From positions 434,001-498,000 of the forward strand of contig WLXD01000002.1 in the NCBI GenBank assembly GCA_012103255.1: DNA of 64,000 nucleotides. Direction: 5' to 3'. Below are positions 17-47,468 of the stretch, piece after piece. A program made the position numbers and the translations under genes. The notes below the pieces were generated by a model. The model worked only from the letters and a program-made list of their open reading frames with translations, was not told where the DNA came from and ran no database searches. The DNA is from Acidobacteriota bacterium. Its GTDB lineage: Bacteria > Acidobacteriota > UBA890 > WLXD01. How positions within the stretch are numbered: position 1 is the stretch's first letter; each line of letters begins with the position of its first letter.

Positions 17-2735
17 CTATTCGGCGCGCATCGCCTTCACCGGATCAACCCGGACGGCCCGCCGGGCGGGCACCAGCGAAGCGCCCGCCGCCATGACAAG
101 CAGCACGGCAACAAGCGCCCCCAGCGTCGCCGCGTCCCAGGGACGCACCTCGTAAAGGATCTGCTCCAGCCGCGGCTGAAGCCACGCCGCCAGCACGAGC
201 CCGATCAGGGTCCCGGTCCCAACTTGAGCCAACGCCTGCCGCACCACCAGACCAGCCACCGAGCTGGCGTCCGCCCCGAGTGCGATGCGGGTACCAATCT
301 CAGCGCGGCGCCGCCCGACGGTCTGCGCCAGGACGCCGTAGAGCCCGACGCCAGCGAGCAGAATCGCAACGCCCCCGAGCAGCAGATAGAAGCTGCCGTG
401 CACGCGAAACCGCTGAGCACCGCGCCCTGCCAGAGATTCGACGGATTCGAACATGGAAACGGGCGCGCGATCATCGAGGCCCGCCACGATCCGGCGCAGA
501 GCACGCTCGACCTCGGCAGAGGAGCCGCGTGAGCGCAGGATCACGCGGTTGAACGACAGCGACAACGACGCCCCGTTGACGGTCGACTGTCGTAGCGGCA
601 CGTAGATCCCCTCCGGCTCTCGACCTCCAACCCCGTTCATTCGGAGATCTGGCACCACGCCCACGACGCGTAGCCAGGGACTGCTGTCGCCTGGTCGCCC
701 GAGCCGGAGCCGCTGGTTCAGCGCGCCGCTCGGGAAATACCGTGCGGCGAACGGCGCGTTGACCACAGCAACCAGATCCTGGTCCCGTTGACCAAAGATG
801 CGACCCGACAGCGCCGCAGCGCCCAGCACGTCGAAGTAGTTGTCCGCGACTGTTGCGTAACGCGCTGTGGGTATGTCGGCATCCGCGTCGGTCTCGACGA
901 GCGTGAATCGGGTGCGATGCGACCCGCTGACCGGCAGTGCGCTCCCGAGCGTGTGCGCCGCAACGTCGGGACTCGCATCGAGTGCGGTCGACAGCGCATC
1001 CCATAGCCCCAACCGCGACTCGAGATCGTCGTAGCGATGCTGGGTAGGCACGACACCGCCGGATCCGTCGAAGATCGTCGTGGTGGGCAGACTCACACGC
1101 GCCGCCTGAAGGCCGGCGAAGTCGAGCGACTGCGCCACTCCATCGAGATTGCTGTAGCTACGGACCACGAGTCCGGCGCTGATGACCAGCGCGGTGCACA
1201 AGGCCATCTCGCCGACGACTACCCAGTTGGCCCAGCGCCGCGAGGCTGGACTGCTCGCGGCTCCGCGTTGACTCCTGAGCACGCCGTGGAGATCCGCACG
1301 CCGGAGGTGCCAGAGGGGGGCGAGACCCGCGAGCAGAGCTGACACCAGGGTCACGGCGCCGCAGAACAGGACGACGGTCGAGTCGACCTGGAACGCCCAC
1401 CACGATGGCGCGTCCGGCCCATGCGGCAGCTGGAAGATGGTCGTCCCCGCCCAGAAGCGAGCGATGAGGCGCAAACCCAGTGCTGCCAACGCTAGCCCAG
1501 CGATCCCGCCCGCAGCGGTCAGCAGCACGGTTTCCACGAGGAGCTGCCGAGCGATGCGGATGCGCCCGGCTCCGAGCGCTACGCGAACGGCCAACTCCGC
1601 ACCGCGCGAGCTCGCCCTGGCAACCAACAGACTGGTGATGTTGAGACAGGACAGCGCGAGCACCATCACGGCGGCCAACAACATCGCCCAGACCCGGGCG
1701 GTGAACTCCTCGCCCACATACTCCTCGACGAAACTCCCAAGGCGCGGTTCAACTCCCTCATTGGTCTCCGGGAACTCTGCGGCCAGCGACGCTCCCACGG
1801 CCCCGATATCGGCCCGAGCCTGCTGAATCGACACGCCCGACCGGAGACGTCCGAAGGCATCCAGCCGCCCTCCGCCACGCTCGTGTTCGGCCAGGTCCAC
1901 ACGCAGAGGACGCCATAGCTGTTCGACCAATGGAAAACCGAACTCTGGCGGCATGATGCCGACCACCGTGGTTGGGAGCCCGTTGATCTGAACCTCCGAA
2001 CCAACGATCGCCGGATCGCTGCCAAACTCAGCCTGCCAGAGGCGATGCCCGAGGAGAACAACTTCCACGGCCCCGGCGAGCGCCTCATCAGCAACGAACG
2101 TACGCCCGTGCAGGGCTTCGACACCCAGAAGATCAAATGCCTGCGGTGTAATCGCCACGCCCCAGTGCTCGCGCGGGAATCCATCGGCGCTCTCGAGCAG
2201 AAAGAGCGCTTCGACATATGCCGCCAGATCGACGAACGTCGTCTGCCCCTCGCGCCATGCCACGAAGTCATGGGGGGGTAACGGCAAGTGAGTCGAACCC
2301 TTCGGCGCGGTTCGCGCGTTCGAAGTGAACCAGCTGTTCGGCGTGATCAAACGGGAGCCCGCGAAGAACCGTGCCGTACACCACGGCGAAGGCGACCGTG
2401 CTCAGGCCTGTGCCGAGCGCGAGCGCAACGGTTGCCACTCCGGTGGTGACCTTGTCTCGGTAGAGCAGTTTGAGCCCGAAACGGACGTCTTCACGCCAAC
2501 CCCCTCGGCCGCTCCCCTGTGCGCCGCGGCGTTCACGCCACACCGCGCTCCAGGTGTCTTCGATCAGGAGCCCAAGCAACCGAAGTCGATTGCAGCCTCG
2601 ATAGCGCGGGTCAGCCAGACGATCGCGCAACGACTCGATCATCGCGTCGCCGTTGCGGCGTCTGAATGAACGCGGGTAGAGATACAGAACCAGCCGGTAG
2701 GCCGACTCGACGATCCCGCCATCGCGCCCGTTCAC
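17..2735 (-). CDS. ADOP-type duplicated permease, frameshifted
   Basis: Inner-membrane MacB/FtsX-like permease of the acidobacterial duplicated orphan class. An N-terminal cytoplasmic prefix (LYPRSFRRRNGDAM) precedes the first membrane helix (TGVATVALALGTGLSTVAF); two periplasmic domains alternate with two FtsX membrane blocks, the first near residue 350 of the restored protein. It ends in the family signature PARRAVRVDPVKAMRAE. The reading frame breaks at the G7 run 2272-2278 (C7 on the coding strand): the upstream frame ends ...AVTPP-stop and the downstream frame resumes HDFVAWREG. Removing one C restores about 905 residues. It starts with GTG overlapping the stop of the upstream PadR by 4 bp, so the two are probably translationally coupled. 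Substrate unknown; no ATPase gene lies nearby. A sequencing error or a pseudogene are both possible. Confidence 0.88.
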
Positions 2736-3052
2736 TGCAGCAGGGCCTTGGCCCGCAGCATCTCAACATCGGCCGCCATACGTTCGGCCTCACGACGCAA
2801 CAGGCTCTCACCGGCCATCGTGAGGCGGTAGACGCGGCGTCGCCCCTGGCCGTCCGCGGTGTCCTCGCGAATGAGCTCCAGTTCCACGAGCCGCGCCAGC
2901 GTGCCGTACAGCGTTCCGGGGCCCATGCGCACGCGGTTCTCTGTCCGCGCCTCAACGGCCTGGGCAATGGCGTATCCATGGCCGGGGCCGTCTGCCAATG
3001 TCAGCAGGGTGTGGAACACGGCGGGCGTTAGCGGCAAGAGATCTTCCGACAC
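2732..3052 (-). CDS. PadR-family transcriptional regulator
   Basis: 106-residue winged-helix repressor of the PadR type. Visible family marks are HGYAIAQAVE in the first helix region, GTLYGTLARLVELELI in the recognition helix, the RRRVYRLTMAG wing and a C-terminal dimerisation helix. The GTG start at 3052 has an AGGAG ribosome site about 7 bases upstream. Its stop overlaps the start of the following ADOP (GTGA), so it is expected to regulate that operon and itself. The upstream region 3074-3127 is full of CGTT/AACG dyads, the likely operator. Small PadR proteins paired with ADOPs recur through this window. The inducing ligand is unknown. Confidence 0.93.
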   Translation of the reverse strand: MSEDLLPLTPAVFHTLLTLADGPGHGYAIAQAVEARTENRVRMGPGTLYGTLARLVELELIREDTADGQGRRRVYRLTMAGESLLRREAERMAADVEMLRAKALLQ

Positions 3053-3073
3053 CTCGGACTCCTGGACTCGTTT

Positions 3074-3127
3074 ATAACGTCAATCGTTGCAACGACAACC
3101 GTTACAACGGTTATCGTTATATACGTT
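3074..3127. promoter_or_regulatory. Divergent promoter with CGTT/AACG dyads (PadR operator candidate)
   Basis: Between the divergent PadR (minus) and XRE-ADOP (plus) genes lies an AT-richer stretch with a perfect 10-bp palindrome CGTTGCAACG (3085-3094) and a second dyad CCGTT-AC-AACGG (3099-3110), flanked by further CGTT half-sites. TATA-like hexamers lie at both ends. Several half-sites in about 50 bp suggest cooperative binding by the PadR at 2732-3052, and possibly by the XRE domain of the gene starting at 3275. Binding is inferred from symmetry only. Confidence 0.55.
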
Positions 3128-3274
3128 GCACACCCTCCATCACAAGGCCATGCAGGCTGGAATCCTTGGCTGCGAGGGTGTGAACGGTTAGCGTGAACAC
3201 TTCTCGCGTGGTGGCCATAGCCAGGTCGTCGCAGGTGCGCCACTCTGGATCTCGACGTCCACAACCTGATTGCA

Positions 3275-5920
3275 ATGCGGTATCGACTTCGAGCCGACAG
3301 ACTTCAACGCGAACTTGCCAGGCGCAGGATCAGCCAGAATCGCTGGGCGCAGATCCTGGGATTGAGCAAGTCGCACCTGTCCATGTTGGTCAATGGTCAG
3401 CGTCCGTATCCCGAGGAGACGACGCGCCGCAAGTTGCAAGAGGGACTGGGCGTCCGGCTCGAAGATCTCTTCGAACTCGAACCCGACGCGCACTCCCCGC
3501 CCGAGAACAACCTCATGGAATCGCTACTCCAGGATCTCCGACACGCCTGGCGCGCTCTGCGAGCGCGGCCTGCCTTCGTTGCCATCATCGTGGTCACGCT
3601 TGCCCTTGGTGTCGGCGCCACGACGGCGATGTACAGCGTCATCGACGCCACTGTTCTGCGGCCGCTGCCGTTCGATGAACCCGAGGGCATCGTGCGCCTG
3701 TTCGGCGTGAGCCCGCAGTACGGCGTCACCCGAGGACAACTGTCGCTGCCGAACACACTCGACTGGCGCGAGCGCACTCGAGTGTTCGAGTCGATCGCGC
3801 TATACCGAGGTCGAACGTTCAACGTTTCCGGAACAGGCGAACCGGAGCGCACTCTTTCGTTGCTGATTTCCGACCAATATCTGGAGCTACTGGGGATCGC
3901 TCCACAGCTGGGGCGCGGATTCTCTCTGGACGAACATCGCTCCGACGGTCCTGACGTGGCCATGATCAGCGACACGATGTGGCGCACGCGCTTCGATAGC
4001 GCGCCCGGGGTTCTCGGCCGGACCGTGCGCGTCGACACGACGGAACACGTGATCGTCGGGGTTCTGCCGCCCTCCTTTGATGACACGCGACTCACGCTTG
4101 GCTGGGATGTCGCTCCTCAACTCGTGCTCCCGCTCGGGCTCGATAGCGAGGAACGCAGTGCATTCTTCCTGCTGGGCATCGGTCGGCTGGCTGAGGGAGG
4201 CTCGCTCGCAGAGGCGACCGCGGAGGCTGATGAATTCGGGGAATGGCTGCGCACTACGTACCCGGAAGAGACGAGCAGCCACTACCTCGCGGCGGTGCCG
4301 CTCCACGAAGTCGTAGCAGGGGGTCTCGAAACGCGACTGACTCTCTTTCTTGGCGCGGCAGCCCTTGTCCTCCTCGTCGGGTGCATCAACGTGGCGAACC
4401 TCATGCTGGCCTATGCCACGTCGCGCCGCCGCGAAGTTGCGGTCCGCAAGGCCCTCGGCGCAAGCAAGGCACGCCTGATCCGCCTCACACTCGTGGAAAG
4501 CTTGCTTCTGTCCGCAATGGGCGGGCTAGGTGGAGCTGTCCTGGCCGCGTTCGCTCTGGCGGCCGCGGCACCAATGCTGCCGAACTACCTGCCCCGCCAC
4601 GACCTGGTCGGACTCGACGGTCGAGTCCTGGTTTTCGCGTTCGCAGTCAGTGCCGCGACCGCGGTGATCTTCGGACTTCTACCCGGGCTTGGCATGGCAC
4701 GTACCAGCGCACGCGATGAACTCGTAGCTGGCGTCGTCGGACACGCGGGGAAACAGCGCATGCACCTGCTCCGCGGTCTCGCGGTAGCGCAGATCGCCAT
4801 GGCTGGCCTGCTGGCGATTGGCTCGGGGCTCGTCGTGAAGAGCTATTCGAGTCTGGTGAGCGTCGACCCAGGCTTCCAGGCCGAAGGCCTGCTGACCTTC
4901 TACACGATCCCGCGCTACAGCTTTGGTACGAGGGATGAGGGGCATGATTTCGTTGCTGCCCTCGAACAACGGCTCGCCGCACTGCCTGGAGTGAGCTCCG
5001 CCGGCGAAATCAACTTCCTGCCATTCTCGGACAACGAAGCCGGGCAAGGGATCGACATCGAAGGTCGCGACAATCCGGAAGGCGTCGTCGACATCGTGCA
5101 GTATCGGGCGGCGTCAGCCGGGTTCTTCGGCACGCTGGGCGCAGAGCTGGTCGCGGGTCGCGACTTCAACAACGCCGATATGTCCAACACCGAGGTGGTG
5201 ATCGTCGACCAGACGATGGCCGATCGATTCTGGCCCGCCGGTGACGCAGTCGGGCAGCGATTCAGAGCCGGCGGCGAAACGCTCTATCGAGTGATCGGCG
5301 TTGTCGAGGACACCAAGTGGCATGGCTACGACGACGAGGCCCTGCCCCACATGTTCGTTCCGTATCGTGAGGATCCTTGGAGCAGCACACGCGGATTCGT
5401 CCTTCGTGCCGCCGGCGATCCGACGCAGCTCGCGGCAGCCGTGCGTGCCGCGGTGCAGGAGCTCAGCCCGAATCAGTCGATCTACGACCTGCAGACCATG
5501 CAGCAACGCATGACCACCTCAGCCGCAGGCACGAGATTCTCGCTAACGATGCTGGTGGCCTTCGGCGCCACCGCGCTCCTGCTGGCGGTCGTCGGCACCT
5601 ACGGCGTATTTGCCTATTCGATCGGCCAACGACGGGCCGAGATCGGCATTCGTCTCGCCCTCGGCGCAGAAGCCGGCCGCGTGCAACGTAGCGTGCTGAC
5701 GCAGAGCCTAGGCGTGGCCGCAGTGGGGGTCATCATCGCGATCATCGGCTCGCGCTTCTTCACGGGAACGGTCTCCAACATGCTCTTCGAGGTCGGGCCC
5801 AACGACATCGGAGTCATCGCAACGGCCGGCCTTGTGATGTTGGCAGCCGGCCTCGTCGCAGCCTGGCTCCCCGCCCGACGCGCCGCCCAGGTCGACCCGG
5901 CCCGCGCCCTCCGAACTTAG
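3275..5920 (+). CDS. ADOP-type permease with N-terminal XRE/Cro helix-turn-helix
   Basis: 881-residue fusion. Residues about 10-66 form a Cro/CI-type HTH (RRISQNRWAQILGLSKSHLS, then MLVNGQRPYP), with the expected helix 2-turn-helix 3 pattern. The ADOP core then starts at MESLLQDLRHAWRALRARP: first membrane helix near residues 102-125, first FtsX block from about 350 (RREVAVRKALGASKARLI), second from about 755 (RRAEIGIRLALGAEAGRVQR), ending PARRAAQVDPARALRT. The HTH sits where the other ADOPs here have their LYPR-type prefix, and no separate PadR precedes it. The gene is intact and divergent from a PadR/ADOP pair. The ribosome site at the ATG is weak. It may be a membrane-tethered regulator or an autoregulated permease; that role is inference. 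Confidence 0.9.
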   Translation: MRYRLRADRLQRELARRRISQNRWAQILGLSKSHLSMLVNGQRPYPEETTRRKLQEGLGVRLEDLFELEPDAHSPPENNLMESLLQDLRHAWRALRARPAFVAIIVVTLALGVGATTAMYSVIDATVLRPLPFDEPEGIVRLFGVSPQYGVTRGQLSLPNTLDWRERTRVFESIALYRGRTFNVSGTGEPERTLSLLISDQYLELLGIAPQLGRGFSLDEHRSDGPDVAMISDTMWRTRFDSAPGVLGRTVRVDTTEHVIVGVLPPSFDDTRLTLGWDVAPQLVLPLGLDSEERSAFFLLGIGRLAEGGSLAEATAEADEFGEWLRTTYPEETSSHYLAAVPLHEVVAGGLETRLTLFLGAAALVLLVGCINVANLMLAYATSRRREVAVRKALGASKARLIRLTLVESLLLSAMGGLGGAVLAAFALAAAAPMLPNYLPRHDLVGLDGRVLVFAFAVSAATAVIFGLLPGLGMARTSARDELVAGVVGHAGKQRMHLLRGLAVAQIAMAGLLAIGSGLVVKSYSSLVSVDPGFQAEGLLTFYTIPRYSFGTRDEGHDFVAALEQRLAALPGVSSAGEINFLPFSDNEAGQGIDIEGRDNPEGVVDIVQYRAASAGFFGTLGAELVAGRDFNNADMSNTEVVIVDQTMADRFWPAGDAVGQRFRAGGETLYRVIGVVEDTKWHGYDDEALPHMFVPYREDPWSSTRGFVLRAAGDPTQLAAAVRAAVQELSPNQSIYDLQTMQQRMTTSAAGTRFSLTMLVAFGATALLLAVVGTYGVFAYSIGQRRAEIGIRLALGAEAGRVQRSVLTQSLGVAAVGVIIAIIGSRFFTGTVSNMLFEVGPNDIGVIATAGLVMLAAGLVAAWLPARRAAQVDPARALRT

Positions 5921-44310: not shown

Positions 44311-44673
44311 ATGACAACTGAAGGCCCGCGCAAGCACTTGCCGCTTGCGCCACACGACTTCGAGATTCTGCTTTCACTCAGCCACGGCCCCATGCACGGC
44401 TACGCCACCATCACGGCGATTCGCGAACGCACGGGCGGTGACATGGTGCTCGGTACGAGCACCCTCTACGCAGCCGTCCGCCGTATGCGGCGTGCGGGCC
44501 TGATCGAGGAAGCCGGCGAACGTCCCGCGCAGTCCAACGGACCGCCACGGCGTTACTGGCGCATGACCGAGCGCGGTGACGAGGTGCTACGCCTCGAAGC
44601 CGACCGTATCCGACGTGCCGCGGCTGCAGCCGATTCGGTGCTGGGCGATTCCGCGGAGATGCGCAAGTCGTGA
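44311..44673 (+). CDS. PadR-family transcriptional regulator
   Basis: 120 residues from the ATG at 44311 (MTTEGPRKHLPLAPHDFEIL); the frame is open from 44269. PadR marks: MHGYATITAIRERTGGDMVL, STLYAAVRRMRRAGLIEEAG and the wing PPRRYWRMTERGDEVLRLEA. Its stop overlaps the GTG of the next ADOP (GTGA). No strong dyad was found upstream; only a weak CGTG-N8-CACG around a CTATAG. Confidence 0.92.
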   Translation: MTTEGPRKHLPLAPHDFEILLSLSHGPMHGYATITAIRERTGGDMVLGTSTLYAAVRRMRRAGLIEEAGERPAQSNGPPRRYWRMTERGDEVLRLEADRIRRAAAAADSVLGDSAEMRKS

Positions 44674-47468
44674 GTCCCGCCCTGCCCCGTATCGTCCGAC
44701 TGTACTGCGGCCTCAGCCGCACGCTACTGCCACACGACCTGTGGGCAGAGCACGGTCGCGACATGAACGAGGCCTTCTATGACCTCTACACGGAGGCGGC
44801 GAGCAAGCCGACGGTCAGCGAGAGAGCACGCCTAATAGGTCGCGAGCTCATCAGTCTTTTCTCGACAGCGATCGAAGAGCGGCGGTCGACGCGTCGTCAG
44901 CGTAGGCACCTGCTCGCGCTACGTGCGCGTCCACGAACTTCAGGCCACGGGCAGCCGCCCGACAACAATCCCCTTTCCGGTATCACCGACATGTTTGACT
45001 CCGTCCTCAGCGACGTTCGCTACACGCTCCGCACCCTACGCAAGAGCCCGGTGTTCGCTGTCGTTGCCATCGCGACGCTGGCCCTCGGCATCGGGGCCAA
45101 CGCCGCGGTCTTCTCGGTCATCAACTCGGTGCTCCTGCGGCCTCTGCCGTACGAAGCGCCCGAGGACCTCTACGTCGTCTGGACGAACTTCGGTCGAGAC
45201 CTGCCGCAGAACTGGCTCTCGGGTCCCGAGTTCGTGGAAATTCGCGACCTGAACACGAGATTCGAGGAAGTCGCGATTTACACGGGGGCGGCCTGATCCA
45301 TGACCTCGTCTGGAAGCGACCCCGCACGGGTGAACGGCGCCGCGGTCTCAGGCTCGTTCTTCGATCTACTAGGCGTCAGCGCGGCCCAGGGGCGGACCAT
45401 CAACGCGCAGGACGACGAGGGTGGCCAGCGCGTGGTCACGATCTCGCATGGCTTCTGGCAGGCGCGACTCGGCGGACGCGACGACGTGCTCGGCAGAGCT
45501 CTGACACTCGACGGCATGGACTTCGAAGTCGTGGGCGTCCTGCCTGAGGACTTCGGCGTCTACCACCCGAACGTGCCATCGCCCGACGTTGTGGGTCTGT
45601 TCGTCCCCTACCAGCCCACATACGGCGCGGAGTACGCCAGCATGTCGCGCGGCAGCCACTTCTTGCTCGGCTTTGCACGCGCCTCCAACGGCGTCAGCCC
45701 GGCTCAGGTGCAAGCCGACATGGACAATGTCGCGCTCGCGATGAACGAAACGGGGAACTACGACTTCGACGGCTGGGGCCTTACGAGCTACCGGCTGCAC
45801 GAGGATCTGGTCGAGGACTTCCAGGGCGCGCTTGTGATCCTTCTGGGAGCCGTGGCCTTCGTTCTGCTTATCGCGTGCCTCAACGTTGCGAACCTCCAGC
45901 TCACGCGAGCCTCCCAGCGCGGCCGCGAGATCGCGCTGCGAACTGCCGTGGGCGCCGCTCGCGGGCGTGTTCTTCGGCAGCTGCTCACCGAGGCTCTCGT
46001 CCTTGCCGCCGCCGGCGCCATCGCCGGGCTGGCCCTGGCCTCGTGGCTGATCGCGGCTCTGCAGGCCGTGATGCCTGACGGTCTCCCTCGAGCACAGGAG
46101 ATCGGGCTAGACGGCACGGTTCTTTCGTTCGCCGCCGTCGCCACACTTGCGACCGTGGCCCTCTTCGGCGTCCTCCCCGGCTTCCTCGCGACGCGGACGA
46201 ATCTCGCGGACACGCTTCGCGACTCTGGCCGGACGACGTCCGGTGGCCCGGGGGGCGGCAAGATTCGTTCGATTCTTGTCGTCGCGGAAGTCGCCGCCGC
46301 GCTCGTCTTGCTCGTAGGTGCTGGCCTGATGCTGCGCTCCTTCAACAGCCTCGTGAATACTGATCCGGGCTACCGGACCGATTCCATGCTGACGATGCGG
46401 GTGTCACTTCCGACTCCGAAGTACGACGCCGACACCGCGCAGATCTTCCAGGCGCAGCTACTCGAACGCACGCGGGCGCTCCCGGGCGTCATCTCCGCCG
46501 GCGGCGTCAGCGGGTTGCCGCTTTCGAACATCGCTGGATCGGGAACAACGCTCGCGGAGTTCAGCGAGGCGGAGGACGTCGACGAGTTCGGTGGCTACAA
46601 GTTCATCGAAGCGGACCGGCGTTCGGTCTCTCCCGGGTACTTCGAGGCAATGGGTGTAGAGCTTCTCGCTGGCAGGTTCTTCGACGAGACCGACACCGCC
46701 GACTCCATGCCCGTGGTCATTGTCGACGAGAGCTTCGCGCGCCGTTTCTGGGGCGAGAAGAACCCGATTGGGCAGCGCGCATCGATCAACTTCCGCAATG
46801 GGATGGATGGCGAAGGGACCGTGGTCACGTGGAGTGAGGTCGTGGGAGTGATCCGCCACGCGCGGACCCAGGATCTGGCCGAGGACGGTCGCGAACAGTT
46901 CTACGCGCCGTGGGCGCAGCGGGTACGCCTCGGCATGCACGTGGCGATTCGCACCGATGGAGATCCGACCCAGATAGCGGCGGCGGTGAACCAGGCGGTG
47001 TGGGATCTTGATCCCGACCAGCCCGTATCGGATATCGCCACTATGAGTGAGCGTGTGGATGCCGTGGTGGCCGGCCCTCGCTTCGTCTCAGTGCTTCTTG
47101 GTTCCTTCGCAGCCGCCGCGGTGGTGCTCGCTGCGATCGGCATCTACGGCGTCATCGCCTACTCGGTCGGTCAGCGAACGAACGAGATCGGCGTACGCAT
47201 GGCACTCGGAGCCTCCAAGAATCGGGTACGCCAGATGGTCCTGCGCGAGGGCATGGTGGTAGTGCTCCTCGGCGTGGGGCTCGGAGTCGCAGCTGCGCTC
47301 GGATTGACGCGCCTGATCTCGAACATGCTCTACGAGGTAACGAACACCGATCCGGCGACCTACGTTGGTGTCGTGGTCTTGCTCGTGGGTGTTGCGATCA
47401 CCGCATGCCTGGTGCCCGCACTTCGCGCAACTCGAATCGAGCCGGTCACCGCCCTGCGGGAAGAGTAG
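44670..47468 (+). CDS. ADOP-type duplicated permease interrupted by an in-frame TGA
   Basis: 932 codons in one frame. Prefix RLYCGLSRTLLPHDLWAEHG, core MFDSVLSDVRYTLRTLRKSP, first membrane helix [20 protein letters not shown]. An in-frame TGA at 45294-45296 falls in the first periplasmic domain (EEVAIYTGAA-stop-SMTSSGSDPARV), where sister proteins are continuous. The rest (45300-47468, 722 residues) is intact: FtsX blocks from about residues 385 (GREIALRTAVGAARGRVLRQ) and 803 (TNEIGVRMALGASKNRVRQM), ending PALRATRIEPVTALREE. A TGG-to-TGA change, readthrough or an error are all possible. A bidirectional terminator follows. Confidence 0.87.

Follow-up and report, generated by a model that had tools for sequence, protein, structure and literature searches.

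HTH-ADOP, a helix-turn-helix fused to an FtsX/MacB-type permease in Acidobacteriota and a candidate membrane-embedded one-component autoregulator

An intact gene in a 4.8-Mb genome of the Acidobacteriota joins an N-terminal XRE (Cro/CI) helix-turn-helix (HTH) to a complete ADOP permease core. This fusion, HTH-ADOP, recurs in other genomes; its HTH is under purifying selection, PadR genes are absent in front of it, and a conserved, phased promoter element accompanies most copies. From these sequence features it appears probable, if short of secure, that in HTH-ADOP an FtsX/MacB-type permease forms the basis of a one-component autoregulator embedded in the membrane. Support for one-component regulation from the membrane is indirect and comes from the promoter element, the purifying selection on the HTH and the mutual exclusion with PadR. 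The gene lies in the window, by which we mean the whole stretch of 64,000 nucleotides analysed here (positions 434001-498000 of contig C2 of the genome labelled G000), and is organized as follows.

3275..5920, + strand: HTH-ADOP fusion gene, 881 aa (open reading frame, Pfam, TIGR03434, ortholog L021)
3275..3481, + strand: XRE (Cro/CI) helix-turn-helix, residues 1-69 (Pfam, alignment of 25 copies, AlphaFold, Foldseek)
3482..3514, + strand: short, poorly conserved linker, residues 70-80
3515..5917, + strand: ADOP core, about eight predicted transmembrane (TM) helices and two MacB-like periplasmic domains (TIGR03434, structure, hydropathy, Foldseek)

The reading frame is single throughout and has no internal stop. 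NCBIfam TIGR03434 matches residues 84-881 with 791.6 bits (curated cut-off 622.3), so that the protein, like ordinary ADOPs, has the complete permease core, but it carries a DNA-binding domain instead of their prefix and has no PadR partner. Pfam places a Cro/CI HTH at residues 9-71 (HTH_26, E=7e-4; HTH_3, E=5e-3), with both matches slightly below their curated cut-offs; in two relatives, HTH_31 scores higher than its cut-off. The alignment of 25 fused copies shows conserved strands, RYRL and LFELE, on either side of the HTH. The original prediction of an N-terminal Cro/CI HTH and an in-frame ADOP core in one intact gene is thus confirmed by Pfam, TIGR03434 and the uninterrupted frame. Structure prediction, which it had proposed as a check, also returned an XRE fold: in the AlphaFold model of residues 1-86, pLDDT is 91-96 over residues 1-70, and the closest solved folds in Foldseek, CapH, CylR2, SinR and C.AhdI among them, are DNA-binding domains of the XRE type.

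The model of the full-length protein, with a mean pLDDT of 72.6, is moderately reliable; Foldseek finds it similar to YbbAP, MacB, BceAB and LolCDE. Hydropathy and the model agree on about eight membrane helices, the first of which is preceded by RHAWRALRARP. The N-terminal HTH should be on the cytoplasmic side, because of these positive residues before TM1 and the topology of MacB, by which the N-terminus was oriented. Pfam detects no ATPase domain in the 881-aa protein, and none was noticed among its neighbors, some of which were family-searched; an ATPase partner may be encoded elsewhere in the genome.

A profile of the HTH was searched against 396 sampled genomes of Acidobacteriota, a survey that the original prediction had also suggested. 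Homologous fusions exist: 26 HTH copies score at least 103 bits, every one in a frame that continues into ADOP, and they are confined to 6 of the 396 genomes. The next-best matches reach at most 41 bits, most of them in short XRE frames, and the 396 genomes yielded no member of this HTH subfamily outside a fusion. Within the host's family (f1), each of the four genomes sampled has the fusion, with three copies in the window's genome and two, two and one in the others. A second family, f9, has 15 and 3 copies in two genomes of one genus, and HTH-ADOP is absent from the other sampled genomes of its order. A consensus HTH query gave no match in plasmids. In the window's genome, at least 150 ADOP-like loci are present in 4.8 Mb.

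The chance that the HTH and the permease are separate genes joined through a sequencing or assembly error is practically negligible. Such an error is brought to mind by the frame-shifted look of the neighboring ADOP and of another fusion in the same genome, which also contains a kinase domain. However, 26 fused frames across six genomes contradict it, and the explanation was rejected on the recurrence of the frame in orthologs and paralogs. Chance and assembly are further excluded as the origin of the fusion because the closest ortholog, L021 (Acidobacteriota isolate OFTM137, contig JAJCXS010000162.1), keeps the same fused frame. A genuine fusion that forms a recurrent family is therefore well supported.

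Comparison of the window gene with L021 gives 87% identity in the HTH and 66% in the core, and dN/dS of 0.08 and 0.20, respectively, while linker residues are the same at 5 of 10 codons. Four ortholog comparisons, including two further ortholog sets, give dN/dS of 0.05-0.17 for the HTH. HTH identity exceeds core identity in all 171 pairs of 19 HTH-ADOPs (median 52% versus 34%), as expected if all HTHs bind one operator, with no correlation between the two values (r=0.09). After the ortholog, the nearest relatives of the window's core are mostly ADOPs without an HTH, at 35-38%. The core tree requires 13-15 changes of the HTH label, versus about 19-21 when labels are shuffled, and at least three are forced by well-supported branches. 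These patterns would fit a history in which ADOP cores exchanged the HTH module, and the AU test also allows one origin (a single HTH-ADOP clade is not rejected, p=0.138).

Within 700 bp of the core, a co-directional PadR gene was seen for none of the 24 distinct HTH-ADOPs whose upstream sequence was long enough, versus 41 of 65 other ADOPs (Fisher p=1.3e-8). In PadR-linked ADOPs, the end of the PadR gene is 95-238 nt upstream of the core, so that the gene abuts the prefix or overlaps with it; most of the remaining ADOPs start near the core, with neither prefix nor PadR. Three arrangements thus exist: PadR with a prefix-ADOP, a short ADOP alone, and an HTH fused to ADOP. Because of the difference in PadR counts, the HTH appears to take the place of PadR plus the prefix. 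The suggestion that the HTH of the window gene occupies the usual position of the prefix, and that the gene has no PadR of its own, is well supported, as no co-directional PadR lies upstream. A PadR gene is present on the opposite strand, and the intervening region contains two candidate regulatory sequences.

2732..3052, - strand: divergent PadR regulator of the neighboring ADOP (PF03551, E=1e-15), given as context
3073..3122, no strand assigned: AACG-N5-CGTT array preceding PadR, probably its operator and outside the HTH-ADOP system
3178..3203, + strand: candidate operator of the fused HTH, GTGTGAACGGTTAGCGTGAACACTTC, with two GTGAAC half-sites 13 bp apart

A dyad-rich promoter between HTH-ADOP and a divergent PadR/ADOP pair had been described, and binding of the HTH to 3074-3127 had been proposed. 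The divergent PadR and the dyad are both real, but the dyad is not conserved in L021, and HTH binding there was rejected as first choice for this reason. Because the array is missing in the ortholog and lies next to no other PadR examined, it is probably the operator of the divergent PadR and not of the HTH. The better candidate operator of HTH-ADOP, as judged from sequence conservation, is 3178-3203. L021 and the window have GAGGGTGTGAAC...T.GCGTGAACAC in common (about 3175-3201) within a poorly conserved upstream region, including the 13-bp spacing of the half-sites. Since L021 keeps this site, lacks the array and has no adjacent PadR, the site is tentatively assigned to HTH-ADOP and the array to PadR. 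Two PadR-linked ADOPs of the window appear to have disrupted frames. The divergent one (17-2735, - strand) seems split over two overlapping frames, 2268-2735 with the prefix and first TM helix and 17-2350 with the rest, as if frame-shifted. The other (44580-47468, + strand) has an in-frame TGA between 44580-45296 and 45297-47468 and is probably a pseudogene.

Alignment of the upstream regions revealed a new element common to most HTH-ADOP genes, TGAAC(A/G)nnTGnnAACACTTT, usually as two half-sites one helical turn apart. When each gene was left out in turn, the element was the best site of its own locus in 16 of 20 genes, versus 1-3 of 20 for random segments from the same loci. In f9, it usually lies 33-34 nt ahead of a TTGACa box: this is the distance from its start to TTGAC in 10 of 17 genes, and two others have 42-43 nt, one helical turn more. 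Its center is accordingly near -60 or one turn farther out. A matrix built from f9 alone ranks first in their loci the sites of three fusions that contain a kinase domain (L082, L084 and L023) and that of the window's ortholog (L021, also labelled L081). The spacing of the half-sites is 10 bp in most copies, 13 bp in the window and 11 bp in the L022 group, and because of these other spacings the sites of the window and the L022 group are not ranked first in their loci by a fixed-width matrix. No clear site with fixed spacing is seen in L064, L076 and, less distinctly, L079 and L069.

For whole-genome searches, which scored the best 150 candidates per genome, a model of 45 positions (R1) covering the element and the -35 box was built from sites of the genomes G015 and G171, which makes its E-values in these two genomes to some extent circular. 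In G015 (5.6 Mb), all sites with E up to 0.17 are HTH-ADOP promoters, and the first other site has E 0.84. Among the best 150 candidates per genome in 19 fusion-free genomes, the top match has E 0.10 and 15.3 bits, versus up to 26.6 bits in G015. At other ADOPs examined the element scores a median of 4.9 bits, versus 14.2 for HTH-ADOPs. These figures bear on whether a soluble protein other than HTH-ADOP could regulate the HTH-ADOP genes through the element, with the HTH acting elsewhere. The pairing of HTH and element was made from sequence, which leaves room for such a regulator; however, the lack of comparable sites in fusion-free genomes and the lower scores at other ADOPs argue against it, and we regard it as improbable. 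It seems just as improbable that the XRE fold is a protein-interaction module without DNA binding. RodZ is a membrane-anchored HTH that acts in this way, and some XRE folds do not bind DNA, such as those in the phosphonate dioxygenases that Foldseek returned. Against this, the recognition-helix region HLSxLVNGKRPYP is conserved, and the promoter element travels with the fusion.

A regulon beyond the HTH-ADOP genes themselves was not found. A wider one in the window's genome was considered and rejected: the matches looked at outside HTH-ADOP promoters fall in or among long ORFs, and one is a coding coincidence inside a kinase gene. G015 contains fifteen HTH-ADOP paralogs (L063-L077), mostly with the same promoter element, and cross-regulation among them is therefore possible. 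At L071 (1910-7156), a short ADOP without prefix or PadR follows 43 nt after HTH-ADOP, and the two possibly form one operon.

A version with the order XRE - Pkinase - ADOP occurs in three genomes, namely at C1:1426491-1423111 of the window's genome and in two sister genomes (L082 and L084). The kinase domain (PF00069, E down to 6e-44) has the VAIK, HCD.KPEN and DFG motifs, and the three loci have gene neighbors in common. The copy of the window's genome (L023 5118-8510; G000:C1:1423111-1426491) is interrupted near the C-terminus, and its sister copies are intact. The long N-termini of three further loci, L125, L145 and L146, were set aside as likely spurious upstream extensions; L146 has neither a kinase nor an HTH domain.

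Taken as a membrane-embedded autoregulator, HTH-ADOP would carry its XRE domain in the cytoplasm, at the N-terminus of a duplicated FtsX/MacB-type permease. The permease part may sense a periplasmic or membrane state and relay it through TM1 to the tethered HTH, which would bind the two-half-site operator (3178-3203) directly upstream of its own promoter. One chain would then do the job of two genes, PadR and the prefix-ADOP. Class I activator sites are centered near -60 or one turn further out. Because the element sits where such sites sit, class-I-like activation appears the likelier direction, and repression is also possible. A simpler mechanism would be autogenous feedback, in which the HTH acts on its own promoter to hold the amount of permease constant and the permease senses nothing. 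The sites are found only at the genes' own promoters, and the genes mostly stand alone among unrelated neighbors, as such feedback would have it; nevertheless, it leaves unexplained why the regulator is tethered to the membrane and why XRE-kinase-ADOP versions exist, and we hold it to be unlikely, though worth keeping in view.

As a membrane-embedded autoregulator, HTH-ADOP would be comparable to several known systems. ToxR and CadC are bitopic proteins with a winged HTH of the OmpR type and a single TM helix (review PMC5936718), whereas HTH-ADOP has an XRE domain and an FtsX/MacB-type permease with about eight TM helices. BceAB-BceS and FtsEX include MacB-superfamily permeases that pass signals (review PMC5985334), and the permease fold of HTH-ADOP is alike in Foldseek. 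These systems need an ATPase and signal via a separate kinase or periplasmic enzyme, whereas HTH-ADOP has its presumed output domain on the permease itself, with no ATPase seen among its neighbors, some of which were family-searched. The PadR-ADOP pairs of the same genomes also combine a transcription regulator with ADOP, but there the regulator has a gene to itself, whereas the HTH of HTH-ADOP is part of the permease chain and belongs to a different class. In the literature searched, which mostly excludes subscription journals, no paper on the function of ADOPs or on HTH-ADOP fusions was found; the architecture may already be in automatic domain databases without comment.

ADOPs are very large families in Acidobacteriota and have no known function in the literature searched. 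A permease with its own DNA-binding domain and a predicted operator gives them a concrete, testable output, and with HTH-ADOP the possible one-component regulators of the membrane come to include a multi-pass permease. More tentatively, and with rather more doubt than confidence, ABC-superfamily permeases without an ATPase would be the sensors of membrane-tethered transcription factors, in a permease-based one-component family with 15 copies in one genome, most of them reading one shared operator, and with an additional Ser/Thr-kinase class. If this is true, sensing rather than transport may be the task of ADOPs as a whole, of which the window's genome has at least 150 loci.
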